The notes below the pieces were generated by a model that made no database searches, had not been told where the DNA came from, and saw nothing but the letters and a program-made list of their open reading frames with translations. From Streptomyces sp. NBC_00457 (GTDB lineage Bacteria; Actinomycetota; Actinomycetes; Streptomycetales; Streptomycetaceae), in NCBI RefSeq assembly GCF_036014015.1, contig NZ_CP107905.1, positions 186,001-250,000 on the forward strand: 64,000 nucleotides of DNA, written 5' to 3'. A program made the translations under genes and the position numbers. Positions 37,016 through 64,000 of this stretch are shown here, one piece after another (the first letter of the stretch is position 1; the number at the start of each line of letters is the position of its first letter).

Positions 37016-38584
37016 TCAGTTCTTGACCTCGCCCTTGACGTGCCGCTGCACGAATTCGTAGGCCAGGTCGCCGAACTGCTCACCGAATTCGACGGACCGC
37101 TCGACCGTCTTGCGGAAGTGCACTCCGCCCCACACCCGGCTCGCGGCGCAGTCCTTGACGAACTCGGTCCAGGTGGGCCAGTAGATTTCGAGGTCGCGGG
37201 CGGGAGAGAGCCCCGGCTCCACCAGCGTCGAGCCGGCCTTGACGGTGAATCGCCAGTCCAGCTCGTCATCGCCGAAGAAGCGCCGCGCCGCCTGCGCCTC
37301 GGCGGAGCAGATGGTCGTGGAGCCGGACGGGTACTCGGCGTGGTCCCCCACGTTCAGGTAGGGCATCCACTCGTTGGCGGGAATGTCGTTGACCGTCCCC
37401 TGGCCGGGGCCGCCCCAGGCCGTCACCCGGCGGTTGCCGTACACGTGCCGGACCGCGCTGATCGGCCGCACGGCGTCGTACTTGATCTTCTGGTGCCAGG
37501 CGACGATCAGCGGTTCGAACGTCGACAGCAGGTGGGTGAGGAAGAAGTGAGCCCAGCCGTGCACGCCCAGCTCGCGGTTGTGGCGCCGCGCTATGAAGAT
37601 CGTCGAGTGGCCGATGCCCCACACCTTGTTGTCCATGATCTCCGCCATCACCTTCTGCTCGTCGGTGAGATTGGCGGAGGCCTCCAGGATCTCGTCCACC
37701 GACTGCTTGTAGGCGCGGGGCCGGGTGTGGTCGATGTGCAGCGGCGGGGCGAGCTCGAACCGGCTCGGGTCCTTGAAGGAGTAGGGCTTGACCTTGCGTA
37801 TCTGCGGGGTGATGAAGTTCTGGACGGTGAAGATGCCCATGTCACCCAAGCCCGCACCGAGGCGGCGGCGATGAGTGGTCACCTGCGGCTGCCAGCGTGA
37901 GGGGTTGACCAGTTCGAAGGCGGTGTTCACGGGCCGGTAGCCGGTGTAGTCCGCGTAGGGCCTGGGGTTGTACCGGCGGCCGCCCTCGGTGCCCAGCATG
38001 TTCATGCCGTCCCGCTTACGGGCCGCGATGACGCCCTTGCCGGCGAGGTTGCCGATGCCGACCGGACTGGTCGGGTTCTCCGACTCGTCGTCGGGGTTCA
38101 GGCCGAGCGTGGTCATCAGCTGCCGGATGGCCGGCACCCGCTCCGCCACCACGGCTTTGGCCACTTGGTACGTGGCGTGGATGAGGGCGATGTTCATGTT
38201 CCGGTTGGTGGCGGACTCGCTGGAGGGACGGCGGCCGACCCGGGTGTACACGCCGACGGCGGTCGGGTGGTACGGCGCCACCGCGTCGAACCAGGCGATC
38301 GTCGTCAGGTGGTTGACCCAGAGGAACATGGTCACGTCCATCGGGGCGAACACGGCCGCTGCGGGCGACTGGCCGGCGTTCTCGTCGCTGGGCTGGAAGA
38401 ATTCGATGTAGTTGCCGGTATCGAAGTCGAAGTCGACGGGCGCCGCCGCCGCGGTGGACGAGCCGGCGGCTGCCGATGCGGTGGAACCCACGGTGGCCAG
38501 CGCCGCGACCGAGGCACCACCGATCAGCAGCGACCTGCGCTGCGGCGAGAAGCCGGGGACGGAAGAACGTCCGGACGTCGTCAT
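37016..38584 (-). CDS. vanadium-dependent haloperoxidase 1 (NapH/Mcl/Mar-like), Tat-exported
   Basis: 522 residues from ATG 38584 (AAAAGGA upstream). Twin-arginine signal QRRSLLIGGASVAALATV suggests export. Vanadate-site motifs of the PAP2/haloperoxidase fold are present: KIKYDAVRPISAVRHVYG, PSGSTT (419-424, Ser422 where fungal enzymes have the catalytic-loop His) and RVWGGVHF with His489, the expected vanadate ligand. Ser in place of His is characteristic of the streptomycete meroterpenoid enzymes. Known relatives chlorinate and cyclise, or rearrange, prenylated naphthoquinones. It is paralogous to the gene at 45401. Confidence 0.92.
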   Translation of the reverse strand: MTTSGRSSVPGFSPQRRSLLIGGASVAALATVGSTASAAAGSSTAAAAPVDFDFDTGNYIEFFQPSDENAGQSPAAAVFAPMDVTMFLWVNHLTTIAWFDAVAPYHPTAVGVYTRVGRRPSSESATNRNMNIALIHATYQVAKAVVAERVPAIRQLMTTLGLNPDDESENPTSPVGIGNLAGKGVIAARKRDGMNMLGTEGGRRYNPRPYADYTGYRPVNTAFELVNPSRWQPQVTTHRRRLGAGLGDMGIFTVQNFITPQIRKVKPYSFKDPSRFELAPPLHIDHTRPRAYKQSVDEILEASANLTDEQKVMAEIMDNKVWGIGHSTIFIARRHNRELGVHGWAHFFLTHLLSTFEPLIVAWHQKIKYDAVRPISAVRHVYGNRRVTAWGGPGQGTVNDIPANEWMPYLNVGDHAEYPSGSTTICSAEAQAARRFFGDDELDWRFTVKAGSTLVEPGLSPARDLEIYWPTWTEFVKDCAASRVWGGVHFRKTVERSVEFGEQFGDLAYEFVQRHVKGEVKN

Positions 38585-45400: not shown

Positions 45401-46957
45401 TCAGTGCTTGACGTCGCCCTTGATCTGCTTCTGCACGAACTCGTAGGCCAGATCGCCGAACTGCTCGCCGAAGACGACGGACCTCTCGATCGTCTTCTTG
45501 AAGTGCACGCCGCCCCACACCCGGCTGATGGCACAGTCCTTGACGAAATCGGTCCAGGTGGACCAGTACAGCTCCACGTCCTTGGCCGGGGAGATCCCCC
45601 GCTCCACCTCCGTCGAGCCGGCGGGAGCGACATGCCTCCAGTCCAGGACGTCGTCGTCGAAGAAGCGCCGTGTCGCCTGCGCCTCGGCGGAGCAGAGCGT
45701 CGTGGAGCCGGACGGGTACTCGGGGTGGTCCCCCACGTTCAGGTAGGGCATCCACTCGCTGCCGGGCATGTTGCGGACCGTTCCCACACCGGGTCCGCCC
45801 CAGGCGGTCAGCTTGCTGCGGCCGTACACGTGCCGGACCGCGCTGGACGGCCGCACGACGTCGTACTTGTTCTTCTGGTACCACGCGGCGATCAGCGCGT
45901 CGTAGATCGCCGTCGAGTTCGTCGCGAACAGGTGGACCCAGCCGTCCAGGTCCAGCTCGTGCGCGCTGGCCGCCGCCTTCCCCGACTGGCCGATGCCCAG
46001 CAGCTTGTTGTCGAAGAACTCCGCCTTCACCTTCTGCTCGTCGGTGAGATTGGCCTGCGCCTCCACGACCTCGTCCACCGAGCGCTTGTAGGCGCGCATG
46101 TTGGTGTGGTCGATGTGGTTGGGCGGGGCGAGCCGGTACTTGCCCGGGTCCTGGTAGGAGTGGGGCTTGACCAGTCTCATCTGCGGGGTGACGAACTGCT
46201 GGACGATGAACACGCCCTTGTCGCCCGCGCCCTCGCGCAGGTTGCGGCGGCGGTGGGGCCCGCTCTGCGGCTGCCAGCGGGAGGGGTGGACCAGCTTGTA
46301 GGCAGAGTTCACGGGCGCGTAGCCGGTGTAGTCCTCGTAGGGCCGGCCGTGGTACTCGCGGCCCTCGTCGCCGAGCATGTTCATGCCGTCGCGCTGGAAG
46401 TGCGCGACGACGGCCTTGCCGGCGAGGTTGCCGATGCCGACCGGGCTGGTCTTGTCCTGCGACTCGTCGCCGGGGTTCAGGCCGACCGCCTCGAACAGGG
46501 TCTGGAACTCCGGAAGCCGGTCCGGGATCAGGCCCTTGACCACCTGGTAGGTGGCGTGCAGGCCGGCGATGTTCTTGTTCCTGTTGGTGGCGGCCTCGCC
46601 GGCAGGACGGCGGCCGAGCCGGGAGTAGAAACCCACCGCGGTCGGGTGGTACGGCGCCACCGCGTCGAACCACCCGACCGACGTCGCATGGGTGAACCGC
46701 ATCAGCAGGGTCACGTCCATGGGGGCGACGAGTTCCTCGAAGGTGTTCCGGTCGGACCTGGCGATCAGGTCCCGGATGAAGTTGCCGGACTCGAGGTCGA
46801 AGTCGATGGGCGCCGCTGCCGAGGCGGCGGACGCGCCGGCGGCTGCCGTTGCGGTGGAACCCACGGTGGCCAGCGCCGCGACCGAGGCACCACCGATCAG
46901 CAGCGACCTGCGCTGCGGCGAGAAGCCTGAGACGGAAGAACGTCCGGACGTCGTCAT
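45401..46957 (-). CDS. vanadium-dependent haloperoxidase 2, Tat-exported
   Basis: 518 residues from ATG 46957. The signal peptide is nearly identical to that of haloperoxidase 1 (QRRSLLIGGASVAALATV), while the mature parts differ, mostly in the first 150 residues after it. Active-site motifs: KNKYDVVRPSSAVRHVYG, PSGSTTLCSAEAQ (again Ser for His) and SRVWGGVHFKKTIERS. In characterised clusters paralogous enzymes act at different steps, such as chlorination-cyclisation versus alpha-hydroxyketone rearrangement; the step here cannot be assigned. Confidence 0.92.
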   Translation of the reverse strand: MTTSGRSSVSGFSPQRRSLLIGGASVAALATVGSTATAAAGASAASAAAPIDFDLESGNFIRDLIARSDRNTFEELVAPMDVTLLMRFTHATSVGWFDAVAPYHPTAVGFYSRLGRRPAGEAATNRNKNIAGLHATYQVVKGLIPDRLPEFQTLFEAVGLNPGDESQDKTSPVGIGNLAGKAVVAHFQRDGMNMLGDEGREYHGRPYEDYTGYAPVNSAYKLVHPSRWQPQSGPHRRRNLREGAGDKGVFIVQQFVTPQMRLVKPHSYQDPGKYRLAPPNHIDHTNMRAYKRSVDEVVEAQANLTDEQKVKAEFFDNKLLGIGQSGKAAASAHELDLDGWVHLFATNSTAIYDALIAAWYQKNKYDVVRPSSAVRHVYGRSKLTAWGGPGVGTVRNMPGSEWMPYLNVGDHPEYPSGSTTLCSAEAQATRRFFDDDVLDWRHVAPAGSTEVERGISPAKDVELYWSTWTDFVKDCAISRVWGGVHFKKTIERSVVFGEQFGDLAYEFVQKQIKGDVKH

Positions 46958-47824: not shown

Positions 47825-48748
47825 CTAGAACTCCTGCTTGTGGATCGCCGACAGAACCTTCCGGTGCAGTGGCGAGAGCTGGTAGTACGACGCGACATCA
47901 AGGCATTCTCCATCGGGCGTCCATTTGACACCCAGGAGGTTCACCCGACCGCCCGGGTAGGTATACGGGGCGTTCTTTGCGAACTTCTGGATTCCCGGCT
48001 CGACGTGCACGGGAAGTGTCGACGGGTCCACGCCGCGGGCCGGCGGCGGGGCGAAGCAGAACCGCACGATCCTCGAAGAATCCCAGCCGAGGGTCACATT
48101 GACCCTGAACGCACCCCGAGCGAACTCCAGCATCCGTTCGTCCGGATCCGGCAGGCCGGTTTCACGAAGCATCGACAGGATGTTCTGCGGTCCGCGGCAT
48201 TCATCCGAGAGCCGGGTGAAGTACAGATTGATGGTGTTGCGCCGGTAGTCGAACGCGATCATCGCCACGTCATTCAGTCCATGACGGGCGAAGAAACCGA
48301 GATTGCCGGCCACGGCGGGCGGCATGGACGGGATGTCGGCAAGTTTTGACACCGCCTGCAGGTCATGAGGAAAGTGCGCATAGATCTTCTTGAAGCCGCC
48401 GGCGACTCCACAGTCGATCATGAACTCGTTGACAGGGCACCGCTGCTGGACTTCCGAGAGCAGGGCCCCCACGGGATGGCCGGTCTCCGCGACAAAGCCC
48501 TTCGCCAGAGCGAGGGCGTACGGATCGCCGACCTCTGCAGGCACGTTGATGGTGTAGTCGAGCTCCCCTGCGTGGCGCTCGCCGGTCTGCACGGTGAGCG
48601 CCACCCCGGCCTGCGCCAGTGCCTCCCCGTCAGGAAAGTACGCGGTCAGGATCGGCACGACCTTCTCCCGTGAGCAGGCGGCCCCCACCAGCCGGGCTGA
48701 TTCCTCGATGGCCGAGTACACCTCGTCGACCACGGTGACTGCAGACAT
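47825..48748 (-). CDS. NphB/CloQ-family aromatic prenyltransferase 2
   Basis: 307 residues, the same length as NphB. Family marks: VVDEVYSAIEESARLVGAACSREK, GFVAETGHPVGALL, CGVAGGFKKIYAHFP, LADIPSMPPAVAGN, FDYRRNTINLYFTRL and the end DVASYYQLSPLHRKVL. It is the most divergent of the three prenyltransferases in the window, which suggests a different acceptor or prenyl donor. GGAGGACG precedes the ATG. Promoter module copy 3 lies about 300 bases upstream. Confidence 0.92.
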   Translation of the reverse strand: MSAVTVVDEVYSAIEESARLVGAACSREKVVPILTAYFPDGEALAQAGVALTVQTGERHAGELDYTINVPAEVGDPYALALAKGFVAETGHPVGALLSEVQQRCPVNEFMIDCGVAGGFKKIYAHFPHDLQAVSKLADIPSMPPAVAGNLGFFARHGLNDVAMIAFDYRRNTINLYFTRLSDECRGPQNILSMLRETGLPDPDERMLEFARGAFRVNVTLGWDSSRIVRFCFAPPPARGVDPSTLPVHVEPGIQKFAKNAPYTYPGGRVNLLGVKWTPDGECLDVASYYQLSPLHRKVLSAIHKQEF

Positions 48749-49215: not shown

Positions 49216-50487
49216 CTACCGCGGCTGAGGGACCATGAGAAGCCGGCGGGGATGAAGCGTGGTCTCCGCCGCTTTACGGATCCGGCTGCCGGCCTCGACG
49301 GTCAGCTGCCATTCCTGCACCACCGCACCCAGGAGGATTTCAAGTTCTTTCCAGGCGAACGATTCCCCGATGCACCCTTTCGCACCCGTCCCGAAAGGGA
49401 TGTACGAGGCTTCGTCCGCGGCCGGCCGCGTCGAGAGCCACCGGTCGGGATCGAACCGGTGCGGGTCCGGGTAACGGACGGGATCTCTGTGCAGCAGATA
49501 CGAACTGAACAGCACGTGGGTGCCCTCGGGGAATGAACGCTCACCCAGCCTGACCGCCGTAAGGGCCCGCCGGCAGGTGATCCACACCGGCGGGTAGAGC
49601 CGCAGCACCTCCATCAGGAACCGGAGGGTGTAACTGGCCGGCCCCCGCCCATGAGCCGGTGCGACGCCTCCGCCTCCCGCCTGCGCCATGTCCTTGAGGA
49701 CCTTCTCCTCGATCAGGGGTTCCTCGGACATCACATACAGCGCCCAGGACATCACCGATGCCGTGGTGACCGTGGCCGCCGTCAGCAGCATGACCGCCTC
49801 GGCGCAGACCTGCTCCGCGGTCAGCGGGGGGGTGCCGTCCTTTGCGGAGTCCGACACAAGTGCCGACAGATAGTCCGTCCCGGAGCCCGGCGAGCGCAGC
49901 GGGCCGGCTATGCAGGAGGCGAGCAGTGCGCGGACGTCCTCCCGTGCCCGCCCAAGCCGCTCGGACGACCTCTGCCGCTGTGCCCGCGCGGCCGCCTTTC
50001 CATGGAGCGGCCTCCTGATCATTTCCCAGGACAGCGCGGCAAGACGCTCACCGAGAACCGCCGACCTGTCCGGCGGCAGGCCGTGGAGAAGAGTGCTCAG
50101 GGCGATTCCGGCGGAAACCCGGCACATCTCGGCCTGGATGTTCACGGCCTGCCCGGGACGCCACGAGGTCACCGCGGCACGGGCGATCTCCCGCATGACC
50201 GGGGCGTAGTCGGCGACCGCCGCGGTCCGCAGGTGCGGATGGGCCAGTCGCCGGTAGTGCCGGTGGACGGACTCGTCCTGCGCGAGGAGCCCCGCCCTGC
50301 TGAGGTTCCTGGCCTTCTGGAAGAGTTCGCCCTTTCCGTAGTTCTTGCTGTCCTTGACCAGGATGCGGTGGACCAGGGCCGGGTCCGTGACGAACTCCGC
50401 GCGGGCGCCGTCCACCGTCACCGTGCGGATCGAGTGGCCCCGCAGGAGATGCTCCAGCCGGCTGAAGTGAAAGACTGCCGATTCCAT
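49216..50487 (-). CDS. cytochrome P450
   Basis: 423-residue soluble heme monooxygenase. Heme loop FGTGAKGCIGESF with Cys372; K-helix ExxR in FLMEVLRLYPPVW; I-helix LLTAATVTTASVMSW, where the usual AGxET/D acid is missing; PERF-like FDPDRW. The N-terminus is short, without a membrane anchor. Start 13 bases after prenyltransferase gene 3 indicates an operon. It probably oxidises the prenyl chain or the aromatic core. Partner ferredoxin genes are not in the window. Confidence 0.93.
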   Translation of the reverse strand: MESAVFHFSRLEHLLRGHSIRTVTVDGARAEFVTDPALVHRILVKDSKNYGKGELFQKARNLSRAGLLAQDESVHRHYRRLAHPHLRTAAVADYAPVMREIARAAVTSWRPGQAVNIQAEMCRVSAGIALSTLLHGLPPDRSAVLGERLAALSWEMIRRPLHGKAAARAQRQRSSERLGRAREDVRALLASCIAGPLRSPGSGTDYLSALVSDSAKDGTPPLTAEQVCAEAVMLLTAATVTTASVMSWALYVMSEEPLIEEKVLKDMAQAGGGGVAPAHGRGPASYTLRFLMEVLRLYPPVWITCRRALTAVRLGERSFPEGTHVLFSSYLLHRDPVRYPDPHRFDPDRWLSTRPAADEASYIPFGTGAKGCIGESFAWKELEILLGAVVQEWQLTVEAGSRIRKAAETTLHPRRLLMVPQPR

Positions 50488-51453: not shown

Positions 51454-52524
51454 TCAGGTGTTCCGGTAGGCGCCGCGCACGGCCATGTCTGTCAGTTCGT
51501 GGCGCCACACCGGGGCGACGGGCGCGTCGGCGAGGGCCGCGCAGCCCCGCTCGACGAGGCCGGCGATGTGCTTCTCGACGTGCTCGGGAACACCGGTGTC
51601 CAGCAGGCGGCGGCGCACCTCGTCGGGGCTGTGTCCCCCTTGCGTGATCAGACAGCGGATGCGCTCGTCGCGCTGCATGGCCCACCCCAGCAGCAGCGTC
51701 ATCTTGTGCCGGCGGAAGTCGAGGCCGGCGGGCTTGCCGGTCTGCGCGGCGTCCCCGAAGGCGTCCAGCAGGTCGTCACGGAGCTGGAATGCTTCGCCCA
51801 CCGCCTCGCCGTACGCGGCGAAGGCGGCAGCGAGGTCGGGCCGGCCCGCCGCGCTCGCCCCCATGACCAGCGGCCGGTGAATGGTGTAACGGCCGGTCTT
51901 GATCAGGGCGATCAGCCGGGAGAGCCGGGGATCGACCGAGAACTCGGCGGCCGCGGCGATGTCCAGGTACTGGCCGATGGTCACGTCGGAGCGCAGCCGG
52001 TGCCACTGCGCGAGCAGTGCCGGCGGCGCCTGGGACACCAGCTCGTCCGAGTAGACGAGCGCGAGGTCGCCGACGAGGATGGCCACGCCCTCGCCGAACC
52101 GGCGTGACTCGCCCTGCCAGCCCCGGCTCTGGTGCCGCTGGGAGAAGACCGTGTGCACGGTCGGCTTTCCGCGCCGCCGGCCGGAGTCGTCCAGGACGTC
52201 GTCGTGGACGAGGGCGGAGACGTGCAGCATCTCCAGGCCCGCGGCCGCCGCCACGATCCCGGGATCGCCCGGATCACCGCCGGCGGCGAGATGGCCGGTG
52301 ATGCAGAAGGCGGGCCTGATCCGCTTGCCGCCCGCGGCGACCAGATCGGACAGCGCGTCGACCGCGACCACCGCCCGTTCATCCACCTCGGCGTAGCGGG
52401 CGCGCTCGGCGGAGAGAAACGAGCTCAGCCGCTGCTCCACCCGCTGCAGCAGGTCATCGGTGATGCTGCGCACGCAGGCAGCCGGCTCCTGACCGGTGCC
52501 GGGCCAGGAGGTCACCTCGGTCAC
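51454..52524 (-). CDS. (E)-polyprenyl diphosphate synthase
   Basis: 356 residues from GTG 52524 (AAGGAGATATTCA). A trans-prenyltransferase that builds GPP, FPP or GGPP from IPP and DMAPP. First Asp-rich motif at Asp108-Asp109-x2-Asp112 (LVHDDVLDDSGRRRGK), second at Asp250-Asp251-x2-Asp254 (QLRDDLLDAFGD), plus GGKRIRP near residue 65. Residues 4 and 5 before the first motif are small (Ala104, Ser103), which usually permits longer products, but length is not certain. It leads an operon with prenyltransferase 3 and the P450. Confidence 0.92.
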   Translation of the reverse strand: MTEVTSWPGTGQEPAACVRSITDDLLQRVEQRLSSFLSAERARYAEVDERAVVAVDALSDLVAAGGKRIRPAFCITGHLAAGGDPGDPGIVAAAAGLEMLHVSALVHDDVLDDSGRRRGKPTVHTVFSQRHQSRGWQGESRRFGEGVAILVGDLALVYSDELVSQAPPALLAQWHRLRSDVTIGQYLDIAAAAEFSVDPRLSRLIALIKTGRYTIHRPLVMGASAAGRPDLAAAFAAYGEAVGEAFQLRDDLLDAFGDAAQTGKPAGLDFRRHKMTLLLGWAMQRDERIRCLITQGGHSPDEVRRRLLDTGVPEHVEKHIAGLVERGCAALADAPVAPVWRHELTDMAVRGAYRNT

Positions 52525-52992: not shown

Positions 52993-54579
52993 TCACGCCC
53001 GCCGCTCCCGCTCCTGTTCGAGCCGGCGGGCCAGGGCGAGCCGCTGCACCTTCAAGGTGGCGGTCCGCGGCAGTTCGGCCTGCGGGATCTGGACGGGGTC
53101 GGCCAGCTGGGGGAAACCGGCGACGGCCGCGCGCCAGCGGCCCCGGTCCAGCGGCTGGTCGTCGACGGTGCAGATCACCGGGACCGCCTCGCCGCCCGGG
53201 CCCTGCACCACGACCAGCTCGCTCAGTTCGCTCAGCTCGCCCAGCACCACGTCCTCGATCTCCAGGGAGCTGCGCACCCCGGGGATCATGTCGACCTCCC
53301 GGTCGAGCATGTGCAGACAGCCGAACCGGGTGCGGTAGCCGACGTCGCCGGTGCGCCACCACTGGCCGTTGCGGTTGGCGTCGTAGCGGTCCTGCTCGGC
53401 GAAGTAGGTCTTGGCGATGCCGTCCCAGGCGACCTCGATGAAGCCGGGGCTCTGCTCGGACGGCGCCCTGCCGTCCCGGCTCACCACGCGGATCCTCGCG
53501 GCGCCGTGCGGCATGGCCCAGCCGACGCAGCGCCCGTTGGCCTTGTGGGCGGAGTGGCGGAAGTAGGCGCGGCCGACGGCCGGACCGACCTCGCTCTGCC
53601 CGTAGATCTGGAAGAACAGCGCCCCGCGCCGGTCGGAGGCCTTCAGCAGCCGGCTCATCGTCCCGGGGTGGATCGCGTCGAAGGTGCTGCTGAAGACCTT
53701 CACCGACCCGAACGGCGCTCGCGGGTCCTCGGCCAGCCCCTCCCACTCCATCAGCGAGTTGGGCAGCGCCTCGATGAAGGCCGGCCGGTGCTCGATGAGC
53801 TGCTCGGCGACGTCGGCGGGGTCCGACTCCCGCATGAGCAGGACCGGGTACTGCTTGAGCAGGGCCAGGGACATCGCCGCGACCATCCGCGAGTGCACGA
53901 AGGGCACGTGGATCGCGACGGTCTCCTTCTTCCGCATCAGGGACAGCAGCCGCCACTGCGGTACCAGGCGGATGCCCTGGGTGCGGGGCGTGTGCACCAC
54001 GAGCTTGGGAATCCCGGTGGTGCCGGAGGTGTGGGTGATCACGGCGGCCTCGTCGATCGGCCGGACCACCGGCCTGACCCGCGGCGCCCCGGCGAGCTCG
54101 GCGAGCGGCAGGGCCCCCGGCCGGTGGCCGCTGGAGGAGATCACCCGCTGGGTGATCTCCTCCAGCGGCACCTCGGCGAGGACGTCGAGCTTGGCCGCGT
54201 CGGTGAGCAGGGTCGGCCGGCCGACCCGCTCGAGCAGGACGGCGACGGTCGCGGCGTCCAGGGCCGGCGACAGGTTCACCACGACCGCGCCGATGCGGGA
54301 CACCGCGGCGGCGAGCATCCAGTGGTCGGCATTGGCCCTCTTGTAGAGCACGACGCGCTCGTCGGGCCGGACACCGGCCGCCCACAGGCGGCCCGCCAGG
54401 TCGTCCACGTGCTCGGCGTACTGAGCCACCGTCAGGCGCCGCCCCGCCTCGGGCAGGACGTCCAGGTCGTGGTCCAGGCTGATCGGTGTCGAGGGGTTCA
54501 CGGCCGCGGCCATCTCCGGCAGCAGGCCGATGTGCAGACCGCGCTTCTGTATCGATTTGTAGGCTGTGGAGCCCTTCAT
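52993..54579 (-). CDS. adenylate-forming enzyme (ANL superfamily; acyl-CoA synthetase or diazotase-like)
   Basis: 528 residues from ATG 54579 (GAAGGAG nine bases upstream). P-loop HTSGTTGIPKLVV, A5-like YGQSEVGP, A7-like WWRTGDVGYR and a C-terminal TLKVQRL lysine region mark an AMP-forming ligase. The middle is unlike classical fatty acyl or aryl CoA ligases. In related aminonaphthoquinone clusters, enzymes of this superfamily accompany the aminotransferase, and relatives of CreM perform ATP-dependent diazotisation of aryl amines; either chemistry is possible here (inference). No carrier protein is present. Confidence 0.87.
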   Translation of the reverse strand: MKGSTAYKSIQKRGLHIGLLPEMAAAVNPSTPISLDHDLDVLPEAGRRLTVAQYAEHVDDLAGRLWAAGVRPDERVVLYKRANADHWMLAAAVSRIGAVVVNLSPALDAATVAVLLERVGRPTLLTDAAKLDVLAEVPLEEITQRVISSSGHRPGALPLAELAGAPRVRPVVRPIDEAAVITHTSGTTGIPKLVVHTPRTQGIRLVPQWRLLSLMRKKETVAIHVPFVHSRMVAAMSLALLKQYPVLLMRESDPADVAEQLIEHRPAFIEALPNSLMEWEGLAEDPRAPFGSVKVFSSTFDAIHPGTMSRLLKASDRRGALFFQIYGQSEVGPAVGRAYFRHSAHKANGRCVGWAMPHGAARIRVVSRDGRAPSEQSPGFIEVAWDGIAKTYFAEQDRYDANRNGQWWRTGDVGYRTRFGCLHMLDREVDMIPGVRSSLEIEDVVLGELSELSELVVVQGPGGEAVPVICTVDDQPLDRGRWRAAVAGFPQLADPVQIPQAELPRTATLKVQRLALARRLEQERERRA

Positions 54580-54747: not shown

Positions 54748-55905
54748 CTAGGCGGCGCGGCCGACGGGCCGTGCGTGGGTGCGCACCGCGGTACGCAGCA
54801 CCTCCACGACCCGTTCGACCTGGTCCATGGTCAGCTCGGCGTGCATGGGTATGCCGAGATTGCGCCGGAAGAGATCCGCCGAGACCGGGCACACCTGCTG
54901 GGCCCCGAACGCGGGCTGCAGGTGGCTGGCCCAGGTGCCGTGCAGGCAGCCGATTCCCTGGGCCCGCAGGTCGGTGGCGACCGCCGCGCGGTCCACGCCC
55001 GGATCCAGCGTCACCAGGTAGGACTGCCAGGCGTGGGTACGGTCCGCCGGTACGTGCGGCACCGTCAGGAGTTCCTCGCCGGCGAAGAGTTCGGCGTAGC
55101 GCGCGGCGACGGCGCGCCGGCGCTCCAGCAGTTCCTCGATCCGGCCGAGCTGCACCTCAAGGATCGCCGCGGCGATGTCGGACAGCTTGAAGTTGTAGCC
55201 GATCTCGGTGAACTGAGGGATCGGCAGGCCGATGACCTGCGCCTGGTCGTAGATGCTGCCGATGCCGAAGGAGGAGAGCTGCCGCGTGTGCGCCCCGATG
55301 GCCGGGTCGGTGGCGATCAGGGCGCCGCCCTCCCCGCTGGTGGCTCCCTTGCGTCCGTGGAAGGACAGGCAGGCCACCTCGGCCAGCGCGCCCGCCTCAC
55401 GCCCCTGGTAGGTGGCGCCCACCGCGCAGGCGGCGTCCTCGACGAGGAACAGCCCGTGGCGGTCGGCGATCGCCTGCAGCTGCGTGTAGTCCGCGGGCAG
55501 TCCCACCGTGTCGACGGCGATGATGCCCACCGTGCGCGCCGAGACCAGATCCGCGACCGCCTCGGGGTCCACGGTGCCGGTGTCGGCGCGTACGTCGGCG
55601 AAGACCGGCGTGGCGCCCACGTACCGCACCGCATGGGCGGGTGCCGGGAACGTGTAGTCGGCGACGATCACTTCGTCGCCCGGCTTGACGCCGAACGCGA
55701 GCATCGCCAGGTGCAGTGCGGCGCCGCAGTTGCTGACCGCGACCGCGTCACCGGCACCGTAACGTTCCTTCAGCCGGGCCTCGAGAGCCTTGCCCTTGGG
55801 GCCCTGGCCGGCCGGCCAGCCGGAGGCGAACACCTCGGCGACGGCGGCCAGTTCCTGCTCCCCCAGGCTTGCGTGCACCAGGGAAATCTTGTCCATGTCG
55901 CTCAT
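54748..55905 (-). CDS. DegT/DnrJ/EryC1-family PLP aminotransferase
   Basis: 385 residues. PLP-binding marks: SNCGAALHLAM, Asp157 in VEDAACAVGA, and the Schiff-base Lys186 in SFHGRKGATSGEGG. These enzymes usually make amino sugars, but a member in furaquinocin-type clusters aminates oxidised flaviolin to 8-amino-flaviolin; with rppA and the cupin adjacent and no sugar genes, that role is the better inference. Its ATG overlaps the cupin stop (ATGA), so the two are translationally coupled. Confidence 0.92.
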   Translation of the reverse strand: MSDMDKISLVHASLGEQELAAVAEVFASGWPAGQGPKGKALEARLKERYGAGDAVAVSNCGAALHLAMLAFGVKPGDEVIVADYTFPAPAHAVRYVGATPVFADVRADTGTVDPEAVADLVSARTVGIIAVDTVGLPADYTQLQAIADRHGLFLVEDAACAVGATYQGREAGALAEVACLSFHGRKGATSGEGGALIATDPAIGAHTRQLSSFGIGSIYDQAQVIGLPIPQFTEIGYNFKLSDIAAAILEVQLGRIEELLERRRAVAARYAELFAGEELLTVPHVPADRTHAWQSYLVTLDPGVDRAAVATDLRAQGIGCLHGTWASHLQPAFGAQQVCPVSADLFRRNLGIPMHAELTMDQVERVVEVLRTAVRTHARPVGRAA

Positions 55906-56468
55906 CTCCGTTGCGCTCCGCGCTCCGTTGCCGACGGGGAATCGAGAAGAGGGGGCGGGTCGAAGCGCAGCGGCGTGATCTGACTGACGTCATAGCGCCG
56001 GCGCATCTCCTCGATGGCCTCTGCGTCCGGCGGCCCGCCGGCCGACCAGATCTCGGCGATCTCGTCGAAGTAGAGCTCGTGAATGGGTGAGGGGAAGCAC
56101 TGGAACAGCATGCGCGCCGGCTGGTCCGAGGCGTTCCTGAACGCGTGCGGCGTTCCCGGGGGAACGAACATGCTGGCCCCCTCGGTGGCCCGGACGACCC
56201 GGTCCCCCTCGGGCGACTCCCACTCGTGCCAGCTCTCCTGCGTGCGCGTGATGGGCTCGAAGGCCAGCAGTTGCAGCTCCCCCTCAAGGACGTAGAAGAA
56301 CTCCTGCGCATCGCTGTGGACATGGGCCCCGACATCGAACCCGGGCGGCACCACCACCTCGAAGATCGATATGGAGGAGCCGTGCGCCTCGGTGGCCTTG
56401 AAGGTCACTTCCTGCGCCTTGGTGATCAGCTTTCGCCCCTGACCGGGCGGGAGAATGAGACCAGTCAT
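55902..56468 (-). CDS. cupin-fold oxygenase, MomA-like (THN to flaviolin)
   Basis: 188 residues. A single cupin barrel with the metal-binding pattern GAHVHSDAQEFFYVLEGE and a second motif FVPPGTPHAFRN. Cupins next to rppA in Streptomyces (MomA) oxidise 1,3,6,8-tetrahydroxynaphthalene to flaviolin, so the same reaction is proposed. It starts 7 bases after rppA and overlaps the aminotransferase gene. The order rppA-cupin-aminotransferase gives a compact pathway to aminated flaviolin. Confidence 0.88.
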   Translation of the reverse strand: MTGLILPPGQGRKLITKAQEVTFKATEAHGSSISIFEVVVPPGFDVGAHVHSDAQEFFYVLEGELQLLAFEPITRTQESWHEWESPEGDRVVRATEGASMFVPPGTPHAFRNASDQPARMLFQCFPSPIHELYFDEIAEIWSAGGPPDAEAIEEMRRRYDVSQITPLRFDPPPLLDSPSATERGAQRR

Positions 56469-56475: not shown

Positions 56476-57543
56476 TCAGTCCAATTCGCCCGGTGCGTCG
56501 ACGCTCCAGCGGCCCAGCGCCATCTCGGCGGTGATGCCGGGACCGAAACCCGCGATCAGACCGGTGGCGTCGGGGGCCGGGGGGTCCTCTTCGAACAGCC
56601 TGCGTGCCGCGTCGAACACGACCGCGCTGGCGATGTTGCCGTATTCGGTCAGGGTCGACCAGCTGTGACGGAACACCGTGCGGTCGACCTCGAGGAACTT
56701 GGCGAGGTCGTCCAGGATCCGCGGGCCGCCGGCGTGGACGATGTAGAAGTCGAGGTTGCCGGCGTCCCAGCTGTGGTCCTTGGCGAACTCCCGCAGCACC
56801 GGGGCCAGCGGCTCCATCGTGCCGGGCACCCGCCGGTCCAGCTGGAAGTGGAAGCCGGTGTCGCGCACCGCGTAGGAGATCCAGTCCTCGGTGTTGGGAA
56901 TGAGGTAGGAGGCGTTGCGCTCCAGTTCGATGCCGACGCCGCCGCTGCCGCGCACCACGGCGGCCGCGACCGCGTCGCCGAACAGCCCGTCGGACAGCAG
57001 CGAGCCGATGTCGTCGGCGTCGGGCTGGTAGCACAGCGAGCACAGCTCGCAACTGACGATCAGGACGTTGCTTCCCGGGTGGGCCGCGCAGAAGTCGTGG
57101 GCGCGGTTGACCGCCGCGCCGCCTGCCGCGCACCCCAGCTGGGCGATGGGTATCTGCCGGGTGTCGTAGCGCAGTCCCATCCTGTTGATCAGCCATGCGG
57201 TCAGCGACGGCATCAGGAACCCGGTGCACGACACGTAGATGATGGCGTCGATGTCACGGGCCGCCACATCGGCGTTCTCAAGGGCCTGTTCGATGACCGG
57301 GGGGCACCACTTCTTGGATTCGGCCTCGTAGATGCGGTTGCGTTCGGTCAGCCCCGGGTGGCGCAGTGTCTGCTCGATGGGCTGCACGATATGCCGCTTC
57401 AGCACCCCCGTGTTCCGGATCAGCCGGAGCGCCAGAGGAAGCTGCGGCTTTCCTGCATGAGCTTGTTGGGCGAACTCCAGCGTCTCTTCCATCGTGATGA
57501 CGTGTTCCGGCGCGCTCACCGCGGGCTTGCATAGCCTTGGCAT
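56476..57543 (-). CDS. rppA: 1,3,6,8-tetrahydroxynaphthalene synthase (type III PKS)
   Basis: 355 residues. Homodimeric type III polyketide synthase condensing five malonyl-CoA units to tetrahydroxynaphthalene. The catalytic triad is at Cys138 (AQLGCAAGG), His270 (YIVHAGGPR) and Asn303 (TEYGNIAS). Cys106 (VSCTGF), a THN-synthase hallmark, is also present; the numbers coincide with the S. coelicolor enzyme. First gene of the operon with the cupin and aminotransferase. Its leader is about 370 bases, with promoter module copy 2 upstream. Confidence 0.97.
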   Translation of the reverse strand: MPRLCKPAVSAPEHVITMEETLEFAQQAHAGKPQLPLALRLIRNTGVLKRHIVQPIEQTLRHPGLTERNRIYEAESKKWCPPVIEQALENADVAARDIDAIIYVSCTGFLMPSLTAWLINRMGLRYDTRQIPIAQLGCAAGGAAVNRAHDFCAAHPGSNVLIVSCELCSLCYQPDADDIGSLLSDGLFGDAVAAAVVRGSGGVGIELERNASYLIPNTEDWISYAVRDTGFHFQLDRRVPGTMEPLAPVLREFAKDHSWDAGNLDFYIVHAGGPRILDDLAKFLEVDRTVFRHSWSTLTEYGNIASAVVFDAARRLFEEDPPAPDATGLIAGFGPGITAEMALGRWSVDAPGELD

Positions 57544-58104: not shown

Positions 58105-59421
58105 ATGTCTCAGCAAGCCGAGGAAGCCGCCGCCGGACGTAAGCGATCCCCCGGGGCGCCGTCCCCGGCGACGGGACGCGATACGGCCGGCGGGGGCCCG
58201 GCGCTGCGCCGGACCGGTCTCCTCGTCACGTTCATCCTCGGCGCCCTCGCCGCGGTGCCGCCGATGTCGATGGACATGTACCTCCCGGCCCTCCCGGAGG
58301 TCACCCGCACCCTGGGCTCGACCGCCACGACCGTCCAGCTGACCCTCACCGCGTGCCTGGCCGGCATGGCGCTCGGGCAGCTGGTGGTCGGCCCGATGAG
58401 CGACAGGTGGGGACGGCGCAGGCCTTTGCTGGCCGGACTGCTCGTCTATATCGTCGCCGCCACGATGTGCGCCTTCGCGCCCACCGCCGAGGTGCTCATC
58501 GCCTTCAGGCTGCTGCAGGGCCTGGCGGGGGCGGCCGGGATCGTCATCGCCCGGGCCGTCGTACGCGACCTCTACGACGGCCTGGCCATGGCCCGGTTCT
58601 TCTCCACGCTGCTGCTGATATCCAGCATCGCCCCGATCGTCGCGCCCGTCATCGGCGGACAGGTCCTGCACGTCACCAACTGGCGCGGCATCTTCCTCGT
58701 CCTCGCCGTGATCGGCATCGCGCTCACCCTGCTCGTCTGGCGCCGGCTGCCGGAGACCCTGCCCGCGGAGCGGCGGCAGAGCGGCGGGGTACGCGCGGCC
58801 CTGTGGATCATGCACGGGCTGTGCGCCGACCGGATCTTCACCGGGTACCTGCTGACCAACGGCTTCGCCTACGGAGCGCTGTTCTCCTACATCGCCGCCT
58901 CACCGTTCGTGATCCAGGACATCTACGGGGCGTCCCCGCAGACCTTCTCGCTGCTCTTCGGCCTCAACTCGCTCGGCCTGATGATCGTCGGCCAGATCAA
59001 CGGCAAGATCCTCGTCGGCCGGGTCCGCCTGGACAAGACGCTCGGGTGCGGACTGGCGCTGCTCACCCTCGCCGGGGCGGCGCTGCTGCTGGTGACGCAG
59101 GGCGCCTTCGGCACCGCGGGGGCGGTGCCGATCGCCGCCTGCCTCTTCGTCATGATCTCCTCGCTGGGCCTGATCCTGCCCAACACCAACGCGCTCGCGC
59201 TGATGCGCACCCCGCACGCCGCGGGGTCCGCCTCCGCGCTGGTCGGCACGTCGTGCTTCCTCATGGGAGCGATCGCCTCCTCACTCGTGGGGATCGCGGG
59301 CAAGCAGACGGCGGTGCCGATGGCCTTGGTCCAACTGGGCAGCGCACTGGCCGCGTTGGTCTGCTTCCTGGCGGTGTGCCGCCCCTGGCAGAACCGGGCC
59401 GCGGTGAAGGCACCGCACTGA
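58105..59421 (+). CDS. MFS transporter, Bcr/CflA-type drug exporter
   Basis: 438 residues with 12 predicted helices after a 35-residue polar N-terminus. Bcr/CflA marks are PMSMDMYLPALPEVTRTLG in helix 1, SDRWGRRRPLL as motif A, and FRLLQGLAGAAGIVIARAVVRD in helices 4-5. GGAGG lies before the ATG. It is divergent from rppA and shares its intergenic region, which suggests co-regulation and a role in exporting the product. A strong terminator follows. Confidence 0.92.
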   Translation: MSQQAEEAAAGRKRSPGAPSPATGRDTAGGGPALRRTGLLVTFILGALAAVPPMSMDMYLPALPEVTRTLGSTATTVQLTLTACLAGMALGQLVVGPMSDRWGRRRPLLAGLLVYIVAATMCAFAPTAEVLIAFRLLQGLAGAAGIVIARAVVRDLYDGLAMARFFSTLLLISSIAPIVAPVIGGQVLHVTNWRGIFLVLAVIGIALTLLVWRRLPETLPAERRQSGGVRAALWIMHGLCADRIFTGYLLTNGFAYGALFSYIAASPFVIQDIYGASPQTFSLLFGLNSLGLMIVGQINGKILVGRVRLDKTLGCGLALLTLAGAALLLVTQGAFGTAGAVPIAACLFVMISSLGLILPNTNALALMRTPHAAGSASALVGTSCFLMGAIASSLVGIAGKQTAVPMALVQLGSALAALVCFLAVCRPWQNRAAVKAPH

Positions 59422-59926: not shown

Positions 59927-60283
59927 TCAGCCCGCCGTGTTGCGTTCCGGTGGCAGGATCAGGGTGGGTTCCAGGACGACGCGGGTGGCGGGCTCGTCGC
60001 CGGCCGGCGTCAGCGCGGGCCTCACGCCGCGCTGCTGGCGCCACCCGGCCTGGGCGGCCACCACGGCGACGTAGGGGATGACGACCCCGCCGACGAGGGC
60101 GCAGACGCCGACGGCGGGCCAGCGGTTCCAGGTGAGGGCCATCAGGACCACACAGGCGGTGCGCACCAGCATCGCCACGATGTAGCGGCGCTGGCGCACG
60201 CGCAGATCCTGCGTCAGGCCGGTGCGTGCCCGGGTGATGGATGCGGCGCGGGGTCCGTCCCGGCGCCATGGGGTGGGGCTCAT
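59927..60283 (-). CDS. DUF3099-family membrane protein
   Basis: 118 residues. The family pattern is clear: AASITRARTGLTQDLRVRQRRYIVAM, then two helices (ACVVLMALTW and AVGVCALVGGVVIPYVAVVAA) and a Pro-rich tail. ATG 60283 after GGAGG. Small two-helix proteins of unknown function widespread in actinomycetes. It lies 144 bases after the qcrB-like gene, behind a terminator. Confidence 0.8.
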   Translation of the reverse strand: MSPTPWRRDGPRAASITRARTGLTQDLRVRQRRYIVAMLVRTACVVLMALTWNRWPAVGVCALVGGVVIPYVAVVAAQAGWRQQRGVRPALTPAGDEPATRVVLEPTLILPPERNTAG

Positions 60284-60352
60284 CGGGCCTCCGTGGATGC
60301 TGGGGCATGGGCCGCCGGGACGAGGGCAACCGGCGGGGCCGGCGGTGAAACG

Positions 60353-60395
60353 ACGGCGGCGCGGGTGACCGTCCCCTGATCACCCGCGCCGCCGT
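60353..60395 (-). terminator. terminator of the qcrB-like gene
   Basis: Perfect 15-bp stem ACGGCGGCGCGGGTG / CACCCGCGCCGCCGT with a 13-base loop, 33 bases after the stop codon. Confidence 0.88.
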
Positions 60396-60427
60396 ATCCG
60401 GCCCGGTCCTGTGCGTCGCAGACCGGG

Positions 60428-62185
60428 TCAGTGCGGTTCCTGGTCCGGCTCCCGCTCCTCGCCGGCGGCCTGCCTGCCGGTGTCCAGGGGCCCGCCTGCC
60501 GACGGGCCGTGTCCGTTGGACGAGCCGTGTCCGTTGGACGGGCCATGTCCGCCCGGCGAGTGGCCGGAGTGTTCCAGGGCGTGCCGCATGTCCTGCGGTG
60601 TCGGCTGCGGGATCTGGTTGCCGTACAGCCAGCGGCTGAGCCGGTGGCGCAGCATCTCCTTGCGGGCCTGCGGGTTGGGCACGCCGCCGTTCTCCGGTGC
60701 GGGGGCCGGCACTGTCTCGCGCACCTCCTTGGACAGCAGGGTGTAGGCCTGGGGGCGGTCGAGGGGCGCGTGGACCTCGACGAACTCGCCGTGCGGCAGC
60801 CTTCTGATCTTTCCGGTCTCGCGGCCGTGCAGGAGCTTGTCGCGGTCGCGGCGTTGCAGGCCGAGGCAGATCCGCCGGGTGAGGACGTAGGTCAGTGCCG
60901 GGACGACGAAGAATCCGATCCGCACCGCCCAGGTGATCTGGTTCAGGGACAGATGGAAGCGTTCGGCCAGGACGTCGTTGGCGCCGCCGAAGAACAGCAC
61001 CAGGTAGAGGGCGACGAAGGCGCAGCCGAACGCGGTGCGGGTGGGGTGGTCGCGGGGGCGGTCCAGGAGGTGGTGTTCGCGTCTGTCGCCGGTGACCCAG
61101 GCTTCCAGGAACGGCCACAGGGCGATCACCGCCATCATGACGGTGGGCAGGATGACGGCCGGCAGCAGGACGCCCATGTTGACGGTGTAGCCGCCCGGGA
61201 CGACGAACTCCCAGGCGGGCATGGCCCGCAGGGCGCCCTCGAGGAAGCCCATGTACCAGTCGGGCTGGGAGCCCTGGGAGATCTGGTCGGCGCGGTAGGG
61301 GCCGTAGGTCCACACGGGGTTGATCTGGGCGATGCCGGCCATCAGCGCGAGCACGCCGAACACGAGGAAGAAGAACCCGCCGGCCTTGCCCGCGTACACC
61401 GGCATCAGGGGCTGGCCGACGACGTTCTTCTCGGTGCGGCCCGGTCCCCGGAACTGGGTGTGCTTGTGGTAGAAGACGTAGATCAGGTGGACGGTGACCA
61501 GGGCGACGATGATGCCCGGGATCAGCAGGATGTGGAAGCTGTAGAACCGGGGAATGATGTCGTGTCCCGGGTATTCGCCGCCGAACAGGAACAGCGTCAG
61601 ATAGGTCCCGACCACCGGGATGGCGAGCGTGACGCCTTCGGCGATGCGCAGACCGGTGCCCGAGAGCAGGTCGTCGGGGAGCGAGTACCCGACGAAGCCC
61701 TCCAGGGTGACCAGCACGAGCAGCGTGAAGCCGATCAGCCAGTTGGCCTCGCGCGGCCTGCGGAACGATCCGGTCAGGAAGTGCCGCAGCGTGTGGATGC
61801 ACAGCGCACCGATCATGACCAGCGCCGACCAGTGGTGCAGCTGGCGGATGAACAGGCCGCCGCGCACGTCGAAGCTGATGCGCAGGGTGGAGGCGTAGGC
61901 CTGGGACATCGGGATGCCGTGCAGCGCTTCGTGTGACCCGTGGTAGACGGTCTCGGTCATGCTCGGGTCGAAGAACATGGTGAGCCAGGTACCGGTGAGA
62001 AGCAGGACGATGAAGCTGTAGAGCGCTATCTCGCCGAACATGAACGACCAGTGGTCGGGAAAGACCTTGCGGATCAGGAACCGGAAGTTGTAGATCCCGA
62101 GCCGCGAGTCCGTCCAGTCGGCGATGCGCTCGCCCGCCGGCGGTGTGGTGCGCCCCGTGTGCGGCGCCCTTTCGGTCGTGCTCAT
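60428..62185 (-). CDS. qcrB: cytochrome b subunit of the bc1 complex, extra stand-alone QcrB paralogue
   Basis: 585 residues resembling actinobacterial QcrB, the quinol-oxidising membrane subunit of the bcc-aa3 supercomplex. Heme-b ligands are present: His117 and His131 in helix B, His218 and His233 in helix D. The quinol-site QPDWYMGF motif and SLPDDLLSGTG are conserved. The C-terminal 60 residues are a Gly/Ser/His-rich tail (repeated NGHG) instead of the usual end. The housekeeping gene lies in qcrCAB with cox genes; here no qcrA, qcrC or cox gene is adjacent. A duplicated target beside a quinone-product cluster suggests self-resistance (inference). Confidence 0.92.
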   Translation of the reverse strand: MSTTERAPHTGRTTPPAGERIADWTDSRLGIYNFRFLIRKVFPDHWSFMFGEIALYSFIVLLLTGTWLTMFFDPSMTETVYHGSHEALHGIPMSQAYASTLRISFDVRGGLFIRQLHHWSALVMIGALCIHTLRHFLTGSFRRPREANWLIGFTLLVLVTLEGFVGYSLPDDLLSGTGLRIAEGVTLAIPVVGTYLTLFLFGGEYPGHDIIPRFYSFHILLIPGIIVALVTVHLIYVFYHKHTQFRGPGRTEKNVVGQPLMPVYAGKAGGFFFLVFGVLALMAGIAQINPVWTYGPYRADQISQGSQPDWYMGFLEGALRAMPAWEFVVPGGYTVNMGVLLPAVILPTVMMAVIALWPFLEAWVTGDRREHHLLDRPRDHPTRTAFGCAFVALYLVLFFGGANDVLAERFHLSLNQITWAVRIGFFVVPALTYVLTRRICLGLQRRDRDKLLHGRETGKIRRLPHGEFVEVHAPLDRPQAYTLLSKEVRETVPAPAPENGGVPNPQARKEMLRHRLSRWLYGNQIPQPTPQDMRHALEHSGHSPGGHGPSNGHGSSNGHGPSAGGPLDTGRQAAGEEREPDQEPH

Positions 62186-62576
62186 ACCCGCGCGCCCTCC
62201 CCCCGCCGCTCGGCCGTCACAGGCACACCCCGTCCGGCCGGTGAACGGCCGGGGGCGGGGGCGGCCTGCGCGGCGTCAGCGGGCCCGTGCCCTGGAGCGG
62301 GTGAAACGCTATCCACGGGCGACCGGGCCGAACAACCGCGCTCAAGTCATACTCAAGTGGCAACTCAAGTGATTCTTGAGCGAGTTGTGGGACGTGCGAG
62401 GACGAGTCGGCCTTCCCGGTAGGCAACAGGCCCGGTTTTTCAGCCCGTTGGGTGGTGGGCGATCGCTCGTGGCCGCTCAAGTGAGCTGCTGCGTCGGACA
62501 GTTGCCTCACCTCTGCCATGCGGCGAGCGTATGACCGTGCTTTATCGGCCCGCGACGGCGCCGACGCGCCACAGGC
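62186..62576. other. region upstream of the qcrB-like gene
   Basis: 391 bases containing the heptad repeats at 62341-62380 and one more CTCAAGT at about 62.47 kb. No gene is supported. Confidence 0.5.
62341..62380. promoter_or_regulatory. direct heptad repeats, SARP-site-like
   Basis: CTCAAGT occurs at 62341, 62352 and 62364 (periods 11 and 12) followed by CTTGAG at 62375. Direct heptads with a helical-turn period are how Streptomyces antibiotic regulatory proteins bind. They lie about 160-195 bases upstream of the qcrB-like gene. No SARP gene is in the window. Confidence 0.6.
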
Positions 62577-64000
62577 TCAAAAGCGGCGTACGCGCGGCGT
62601 GCTCACGGCCGCTGCCGGCCGGCCGGCGGCGGGGGCGGGCGTGGCCGGGGTGGCGGGACGGCGCGGGCGTGCCTGGGGGCCGTGGGTGACGCTGGACGGC
62701 GTCGCGGGCGGCGTGTCACGGCGGGGGCGCAGCGCCGCCCGCAGCGCGCGCGGGCGCAGGGCGGCGGGCGGGGCGAGGCTCTGCTGCAGGTGGAGCAGCA
62801 GGGCCGCCGCGTGCGGGTCGGTGGTCGCGGCGGCCGCGAGCCGGGACGCGTAGCGCCGGCCGAGCCGGGCGCGCAGGGTGGCCGGCGGGTCCTGGCCGGT
62901 GTCCGCCGGGCCCAGGGTGCGGGCGCTCGCCTGCCAGGCGGGGGCGAGGCGGTGGGCCAGGGCCCGGCGCAGGCGGTGGCTGATGCCGACCGCGGTGCCG
63001 TGCGCGGCGAGCAGGTGGTCCAGGACGAGAGCGCCCTGCACGGCGAGGGTCATGCCGTGGCCGTGGGCCGGGTCCAGGGTGGCGAGGGCGTCGCCGACCA
63101 CGAGGAACTGGTCGGGCCAGCGGCGCAGCTTCTCGTAGTGGCGCCAGCGCTGCCCGGTGCGGCTGCAGCCGTAGACGGGGCCGAGTGGGGTGGCCGCCTC
63201 GATGAGGTCGCGCAGCAGCGGGTGGCGCAGGTTGCCTGCGGCGCGCACCAGTGCCGCGTGGCTGGTGGGCGGCGGTGTGCCGTCGCCGGTGCTCAGCGAC
63301 ACCGACCAGCGGCCGCCTTCGACGGGGTGCAGCATGCCCTGGCGCGGGTCGCCGGGCGCGGCCATGAGCACCAGGCTGGTGAAGTCGGCGACGTGGCCGA
63401 CCGGCGCCGCGAACAGGGTGGTGGCGTACGCGGTCCCGGCGCCGGCCACGGATTCGGCGGGCGGGTCGTAGCCGAGCTCGGCGAGCCATTGCGGGGCGCG
63501 GGAGCCTTGTCCGGAGGCGTCCACCACGAACTCGGCCGGCAGCAGGCGCCGGGGCGTCCAGCCGCCCGGGGCCGTGCGGTCCCGGCCGCGTGCCCAGACG
63601 CCGGTGACGGTGTCCTGGCGGCCGCCCTGCAGGGCGACGACCTCGTGCTGCGGCAGGAAGGTCACCCTGGGGTCGGCGCGCAGCCGGGCGCGTATGGCCG
63701 CGTCGATGAGGTCGCGGCCGGCGCTGTACATCGACAGGCCCGCGTCGAAGCGGGGCAGCCAGCCGGCCGGGCCGAGCAGCAGCATGTCCTTCGGGATGCG
63801 GACGTGGACGGCTCCGGCGCGGGTGAGGTCACCGCGGATGCCGGGGAACAGTTCCTCCAGGCCCTGGTGGGCGGCGGTCATGAGGCTGTGGGTGTGCCGT
63901 GCCTGGGGTACGCCGCGGCGGCGGCCCGCTCCGGTGGGCAGCCAGTCGCGCTCGATCACGGTGACGTGGTCCATGAAGTTGGCCAGGGCCCGCGCCGCGG
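62577..64000 (-). CDS. FAD-dependent monooxygenase/oxidoreductase (5' part beyond window)
   Basis: About 474 residues are visible; the frame continues past 64000 (upstream codons read AARALANF), so the GxGxxG start of the FAD fold is missing from view. Visible marks: VIERDWLPTGAGRRRGVPQARHTHSL (flavin fold of the halogenase/hydroxylase group), FVVDASGQGSRAPQWL and FLVVGDALATLDPAHGHGMTLAVQGA, the GD motif binding FAD. The C-terminal 70 residues are Pro/Ala/Arg-rich. It could hydroxylate the naphthoquinone core, but may equally be unrelated. Confidence 0.85.
   Translation of the reverse strand, partial: AARALANFMDHVTVIERDWLPTGAGRRRGVPQARHTHSLMTAAHQGLEELFPGIRGDLTRAGAVHVRIPKDMLLLGPAGWLPRFDAGLSMYSAGRDLIDAAIRARLRADPRVTFLPQHEVVALQGGRQDTVTGVWARGRDRTAPGGWTPRRLLPAEFVVDASGQGSRAPQWLAELGYDPPAESVAGAGTAYATTLFAAPVGHVADFTSLVLMAAPGDPRQGMLHPVEGGRWSVSLSTGDGTPPPTSHAALVRAAGNLRHPLLRDLIEAATPLGPVYGCSRTGQRWRHYEKLRRWPDQFLVVGDALATLDPAHGHGMTLAVQGALVLDHLLAAHGTAVGISHRLRRALAHRLAPAWQASARTLGPADTGQDPPATLRARLGRRYASRLAAAATTDPHAAALLLHLQQSLAPPAALRPRALRAALRPRRDTPPATPSSVTHGPQARPRRPATPATPAPAAGRPAAAVSTPRVRRF

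Follow-up and report, generated by a model that had tools for sequence, protein, structure and literature searches.

A lone qcrB gene linked to hybrid-isoprenoid clusters in Streptomyces: a candidate cytochrome b for self-protection

A lone qcrB gene in a Streptomyces biosynthetic cluster belongs to a clade that is rare in the genus and cluster-linked, unlike extra qcrB genes generally. This linkage suggests, without proving, that a spare QcrB helps the producer to respire during synthesis of the compound. We put the chances at about even that the gene provides a cluster-carried alternative cytochrome b for self-protection, which would keep the bcc-aa3 chain working despite the product.

The gene, its neighbourhood and its control region

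The window, the whole stretch of 64,000 nucleotides analysed, comprises bases 186001-250000 of a genome assembled as one contig of 10.80 Mb. Judged by predicted gene products, the neighbourhood of 60428..62185 is a hybrid-isoprenoid naphthoquinone cluster. The initial annotation had placed genes for a quinone meroterpenoid directly beside qcrB, and a cluster of the THN-synthase/prenyltransferase/haloperoxidase type was indeed found there:

37016..38491, minus strand: second vanadium haloperoxidase
45401..46864, minus strand: vanadium haloperoxidase, NapH3/NapH1-like
47825..48748, minus strand: second Orf2-type aromatic prenyltransferase gene
49216..50487, minus strand: cytochrome P450
50501..51415, minus strand: Orf2-type aromatic prenyltransferase (longer ORF form)
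51454..52524, minus strand: polyprenyl synthetase (longer ORF form)
52993..54579, minus strand: AMP-forming ligase-like enzyme
54748..55905, minus strand: DegT/DnrJ/EryC1 aminotransferase, a cluster marker
55902..56408, minus strand: cupin-domain protein, cluster core
56476..57519, minus strand: type III PKS resembling THN synthase
58255..59421, plus strand: Bcr/CflA-type MFS efflux gene (TIGR00710; at least 50% identity in 13 of 23 clade loci)
59927..60283, minus strand: DUF3099 small membrane protein (PF11298), the next gene downstream of qcrB
60353-60395, minus strand: hairpin after the qcrB stop codon (18-bp stem, 7-nt loop; 91-nt fold, z -3.77)
60428..62185, minus strand: lone qcrB, intact ORF of 585 aa with an ATG start (identical gene in the opposite arm of the terminal inverted repeat, TIR)
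62341..62369, minus strand: three CTTGAG direct repeats spaced by 12 and 11 bases, 161-184 bases before the qcrB ATG
62577..64000, minus strand: FMO, a flavin-dependent monooxygenase, continuing past the window end

Just outside the window lie genes for a nitrosuccinate lyase (CreD type), for the oxidase presumed to partner it (CreE type, a name given by position) and for the mevalonate pathway (names taken from annotated homologues). The FMO is related to the olefin epoxidases MonCI and Lsd18; it could oxidise the isoprenoid tail and thereby activate the product, or it could detoxify the product.

The 60428..62185 product contains the Pfam domains Cytochrome_B and Cytochrom_B_N_2, scores 745.5 bits against NCBIfam NF050120 (bc1_QcrB_actin; cut-off 500) and has as its top PDB sequence matches QcrB, the cytochrome b subunit of the cytochrome bc1 complex. 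Among the 86 clade proteins, His114, 115, 128, 216 and 231 (M. tuberculosis numbering) are conserved in 85-86, and the PDWY quinol-site motif is present in all 86; these histidines include the heme ligands. The prediction of a complete QcrB with heme-type histidines and a quinol motif was thus confirmed by Pfam, NCBIfam, PDB matches and residue conservation alike. Neither the heme-type histidines nor the six listed QN residues show a fixed difference between clade and housekeeping QcrB, and because these residues and PDWY are conserved, clade QcrB looks catalytically sound.

That qcrB stands alone, without qcrA, qcrC or cox genes, had also been noted, and tblastn bore this out: no QcrA, QcrC, CtaC, CtaD or CtaE match was obtained in 80 kb here or in 23 clade stretches. 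Hence qcrC and qcrA are not co-encoded with the cluster qcrB, which concerns gene order and not protein family.

The gap between FMO and qcrB measures 391 bases here and 208-998 bases in 19 relatives. Within it, the CTTGAG triple is a probable control element, found genome-wide only at this place and at its TIR counterpart, with a relaxed three-copy form in 9/20 usable clade loci. A single pair is uninformative, because the exact pair occurs at 10 genomic places (two here, two in the other arm and six elsewhere) and the reversed control is commoner, at 17. CTTGAG was rejected as a cluster-wide operator, there being no exact pair elsewhere in the window. At the other end of the gene, the 60353-60395 hairpin, which a generic T-run terminator scan did not list, is a probable terminator, and at that strength the terminator proposed in the initial annotation stands. 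Its stem is conserved, with paired changes in G021, and the loop motif GGGGACG recurs in 15 of 21 clade loci; a conserved hairpin loop is unusual for a plain terminator. Taken together, the upstream gap, the CTTGAG triple and the hairpin suggest that qcrB has a control region and a terminator of its own.

A whole-genome search with the cluster QcrB returned seven matches, namely the query gene, an identical copy at 10,554,426, four qcrB loci at 56-60% identity and a 24-residue chance match. The identical copy sits in the opposite TIR arm; over the 28.4 kb compared (approximately window positions 51572-64000 plus the next 16 kb) the arms are 100% identical, bar one break (~39 bases) located between the genes for the aminotransferase and the ligase. 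A second genome, G092, also has one clade qcrB near each end (G092:C1:209863 and 11913142). The idea of a duplicated target presupposes another qcrB in the genome, and there are four further loci, one of them housekeeping. The latter (G000:C1:7831339) lies in the cta region after qcrC- and qcrA-type genes, and the other three adjoin an ECF sigma gene, gltB/gltD-like genes and a region with glycosyltransferase-/NDH-2-like genes; neighbour names at all four loci come from reading the sequences.

Distribution of the clade and its linkage to clusters

In a protein search, 86 clade clusters matched at 64-94% identity, followed by a gap, with the next match at no more than 63%; their treatment as one clade is based on the 21 placed in the tree. 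In an even draw of 392 Streptomyces genomes (clade QcrB at E <= 1e-240, three candidates per genome scored), the clade QcrB was found in 8, with 75-86% identity outside the source genome, and the cluster aminotransferase (E <= 1e-100) in 26. Both genes occurred in 7 genomes, QcrB only in 1, aminotransferase only in 19 and neither in 365 (Fisher 1.9e-8, a statistic that ignores relatedness). Whole-genome searches of the 19 aminotransferase-only genomes gave only QcrBs of 52-65% identity, and near the aminotransferase (up to ~20 kb per side, contig permitting) no clade QcrB, FMO or DUF3099 match was seen in them. Extra qcrB genes of other clades are common: at least two QcrB match rows were obtained in 21 of the 37 Streptomyces genomes of the relatives search. 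Among the matches listed for named species genomes there were at least six clade loci, three of them apparently the same as G021, G241 and G326. From the plasmid collection, 14 records with 74-84% identity were listed, 12 of which were read, 11 with annotation.

With one query set, 23 distinct clade loci were compared. THN synthase was present in 17 and phenazine genes in four (S. antibioticus DSM 40234 and three linear plasmids), with neither in two; CreD and CreE were found together in 21. The tie to a naphthoquinone cluster claimed at the outset therefore holds as cluster linkage (THN synthase in 17/23) but is not specific to naphthoquinones (phenazine genes in 4/23). A paralogue widespread without nearby clusters would have spoken against the initial annotation, and the clade does not behave in this way, 7/8 genomes and 21/23 loci being cluster-linked. 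In the four phenazine-type loci L155, L291, L292 and L295, a mevalonate-CreE-CreD-FMO-qcrB-DUF3099 block adjoins the phenazine genes, with THN synthase replaced. Locus L154, covered for 10 kb per side, contains FMO, CreD, CreE, KASIII and polyprenyl synthase and no scaffold gene. In S. monashensis MUSC 1 (L157, L060, L061) an intact clade qcrB lies beside modular-PKS-like genes, and a search covering 100 kb of its contig (148.5 kb) gave no other cluster gene, only weak MFS and P450 matches. Another record under the name S. monashensis (P0216) includes an FMO of 71% identity, on a contig of 283 kb.

The usual arrangement in the clade is FMO-qcrB-DUF3099. DUF3099 adjoins qcrB in 22 of the 23 loci and FMO is present in 20, the three exceptions being a contig end, a locus without a match covering 35% and a locus with neither gene. 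Where a contig was listed, at least 34 of 85 clade-QcrB protein clusters apparently share it with one of 119 listed FMO clusters. On the plasmid of Streptomyces sp. AD2-2 (L294), short annotated ORFs occupy the place of FMO, without a match covering 35%, and qcrB and DUF3099 are kept. We considered DUF3099 as a known supercomplex subunit and rejected this, since no PDB match was found at E <= 1 and its best other genomic copy has neighbours without an evident respiratory role (names by eye).

The quinol pocket and the origin of the gene

The QP and QN residue lists were taken from the available part of PMC8616580, residue numbers being those of M. tuberculosis QcrB, and 108 QcrBs with QcrA next door served as the housekeeping reference. 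With alignment columns 338 and 340-345 excluded as unsure, 7 of 19 QP residues were fixed-different between the clade and the reference, compared with 46/442 columns overall (Fisher 0.0016); with column 342 kept, the count was 8/21 (p 0.0009). Other lone QcrB groups served as a control and gave 2/19 fixed differences for 27 proteins (p 0.024), 7/19 for seven proteins (p 0.0007) and 10/19 for a group of three beside ctaD-like genes, which has Leu313 (p 0.0002). With two other lone groups at least as strong, the pocket difference was ruled out as clade-specific proof.

To polarise the changes, we compared the clade with 107 housekeeping proteins of Streptomycetaceae and with 16 outgroup QcrBs drawn from the class and order. 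A direction could be assigned to six QP differences, and 6/6 fell on the housekeeping side (6/15 such positions, Fisher 1.9e-5), while none of 17 clade-derived changes lay in the 21 mapped QP residues. Leu158, Ile178, Ala179, Ser304 and Leu313 form the pocket common in actinobacteria, which is also that of the clade, versus Phe158, Phe178, Met/Thr179, Ala304 and Ser/Ala313 in the derived Streptomyces housekeeping pocket. The quinol pocket of housekeeping Streptomycetaceae QcrB (L009 and 107 others) is itself derived relative to the 16 outgroup QcrBs. At position 313, Leu is found in 86/86 clade proteins, and the 108 housekeeping proteins have Ser (55), Ala (48), Pro (3), Thr (1) or Leu (1). 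According to the available parts of PMC8616580 and PMC8523172, T313 is the site of Q203 resistance mutants; a new resistance-type mutation at 313 was nevertheless set aside, Leu being present in 11/16 outgroup QcrBs as well.

The clade-derived changes cluster in helix B, with 6/17 falling within 25 residues (permutation p 0.011), near what is presumably a heme-bH ligand. Val132His is found in 86/86 clade proteins, 0/107 housekeeping proteins and 0/16 outgroup proteins, and together with Ala137Ser it recurs in a separate lone group (15/38 lone proteins).

In a tree of 55 rows built by a quick method, the cluster QcrB clade forms a single branch (SH-aLRT 99), separate from the lone groups sampled. 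It is sister to the sampled Streptomycetaceae housekeeping and lone QcrBs, the ctaD-linked lone group excepted, with a support of 88, a value at which the tool's standard neither shows nor rejects the placement. A recent duplication of the housekeeping gene is unsupported, in that the clade branches outside the sampled Streptomycetaceae QcrBs at this support. From pocket polarisation and tree together, the cluster copy would thus be either an ancient paralogue or the result of an early transfer, its pocket being the one usual in actinobacteria.

These results change the picture of a duplicated, altered target drawn by the initial annotation. The pockets do differ from each other at the Qo site, but the change is on the housekeeping side, no clade-derived change was found among the 21 mapped QP residues, and other lone groups differ there too. 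The likeness to inhibitor-resistant mutants, Leu313 at the Q203 site, is shared with most of the outgroup, and a duplicated and then altered housekeeping gene agrees neither with the outside placement (support 88) nor with the common actinobacterial pocket.

Possible roles and relation to known systems

If the gene serves self-protection, its own promoter would drive the cluster qcrB, and the cluster QcrB would join the resident QcrA, QcrC and aa3 subunits in place of the housekeeping QcrB. The product, predicted from the genes to be a naphthoquinone here and a phenazine in some relatives, would disturb the housekeeping complex, to which the cluster copy would be less sensitive, so that menaquinol oxidation could continue during synthesis of a redox compound that is prenylated and resembles menaquinone. 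Both scaffolds share a redox-active ring and an isoprenoid tail, which fits protection of menaquinol oxidation. Should the quinol pocket determine sensitivity, resistance would go with its common actinobacterial form and sensitivity with the form derived in Streptomyces. A further extension, which we think unlikely, is that FMO-qcrB-DUF3099 is a portable immunity island common to prenylated naphthoquinones and prenylated phenazines, both being menaquinol mimics that hit the derived Streptomyces pocket and weapons mainly against streptomycetes, with the cluster copy bearing the old, naturally insensitive pocket.

A precedent exists in S. coelicolor, where QcrB3 is made in spores and co-purified with bcc-aa3 components, although its authors describe the replacement of QcrB by QcrB3 as "not yet unequivocally shown" (PMC7931247, available part). 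QcrB3 (SCO7236) and QcrB2 (SCO7120) are likewise lone paralogues away from the qcr-cta genes; they differ, as compared by description, in being tied to spores and nitrate reductase and not to a biosynthetic cluster (PMC7931247, available part). In favour of self-protection we count this precedent, the cluster linkage, the FMO-qcrB-DUF3099 unit, the sound protein and the control region of its own; against it we count the 19 genomes without the gene, the ancestral pocket, the pocket differences of two other lone groups, the action of merochlorins on S. aureus and the orphan copy in S. monashensis. Target-based self-resistance as first proposed accordingly retains the separate housekeeping qcrB and the cluster linkage but loses the newly altered pocket, and 19 of the 26 aminotransferase-bearing genomes do without the gene.

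Alternatively, the b subunit may be a respiratory variant of the production phase that tunes the supercomplex (redox balance, quinone pool) without conferring inhibitor resistance. We regard this as possible though rather doubtful. Lone QcrBs are widespread and mostly lie away from such clusters, and the helix B changes, with the recurrent Val132His/Ala137Ser, hint at a change in redox properties rather than in the binding of inhibitors; a similar tuning has been proposed for QcrB3 in spores (PMC7931247, available part). This explanation, however, leaves the close linkage of one clade to hybrid-isoprenoid clusters and to FMO unaccounted for. The joint travel of FMO, qcrB and DUF3099, and the kinship of the FMO with the epoxidases MonCI and Lsd18, would also suit a membrane redox module of the three that makes or tailors the product. 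We consider such a role improbable, since the unit is common to two different scaffolds, the L294 plasmid retains qcrB and DUF3099 without a recognisable FMO (no match covering 35%), and no QcrB-family cytochrome b is known to work without Rieske and cytochrome c partners. Very unlikely, finally, is a mere passenger of a mobile region with a role unconnected to the cluster: many copies are indeed carried by linear plasmids or TIRs, and S. monashensis has an orphan copy, but the neighbours are conserved across considerable divergence (the clade down to 64%, the 23 loci at 74-100%) and the reading frames are intact.

Self-resistance by target duplication within biosynthetic clusters is a known principle. 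Like such genes, the cluster qcrB is an extra version of an essential respiratory gene, is conserved in a biosynthetic cluster and has a separate housekeeping copy in the genome; it accompanies the cluster in other strains and is seldom found outside it. Unlike them, it has a pocket that is ancestral and not newly altered. S. aureus has no bc1 complex. Merochlorins nevertheless inhibit S. aureus (PMC8624273, available part), so that bc1 is not their only antibacterial target.

The merochlorin cluster of Streptomyces sp. CNH189 and the MAR4 hybrid-isoprenoid clusters are of the same THN-synthase/prenyltransferase/haloperoxidase type (PMC4650096, available part). The merochlorin producer CNH189 has relatives of the cluster QcrB (74%) and FMO (70%), and from database entries we infer that both are located in the merochlorin cluster. 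The word "cytochrome" is absent from the main text of PMC4650096, as far as available, and likewise from the available part of another MAR4 paper. In the open-licence literature we found nothing linking qcrB or cytochrome bc1 to self-resistance in Streptomyces and no description of a qcrB clade tied to hybrid-isoprenoid clusters; the cytochrome bc1 self-resistance clusters there are fungal, going by title. Lone QcrBs and target duplication are already known, and the CNH189 gene is already deposited and annotated.

If self-protection is true, prenylated naphthoquinones and phenazines, a large family, would have a target in the bcc-aa3 chain, clade QcrB or the FMO-qcrB-DUF3099 unit would mark clusters with possible cytochrome bc1-acting products, and these strains would provide natural QcrB pairs, with two quinol pockets in one cell. 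If the production-phase variant is true, secondary metabolism would bring an exchange of respiratory subunits with it, and the numerous lone QcrBs in Streptomyces would pose a testable question.

Two further sets of lone QcrBs were observed. Those of L010, L238-L246 and L257, many of them in line with an ECF sigma gene, carry Val132His and Ala137Ser; they branch elsewhere, and the shared residues look like convergence with the cluster clade. Those of L247, L248, L251 and L254 lie by ctaD-like genes, have Leu313 and branch far from other Streptomyces QcrBs, possibly representing an alternative bcc-aa3 pair.
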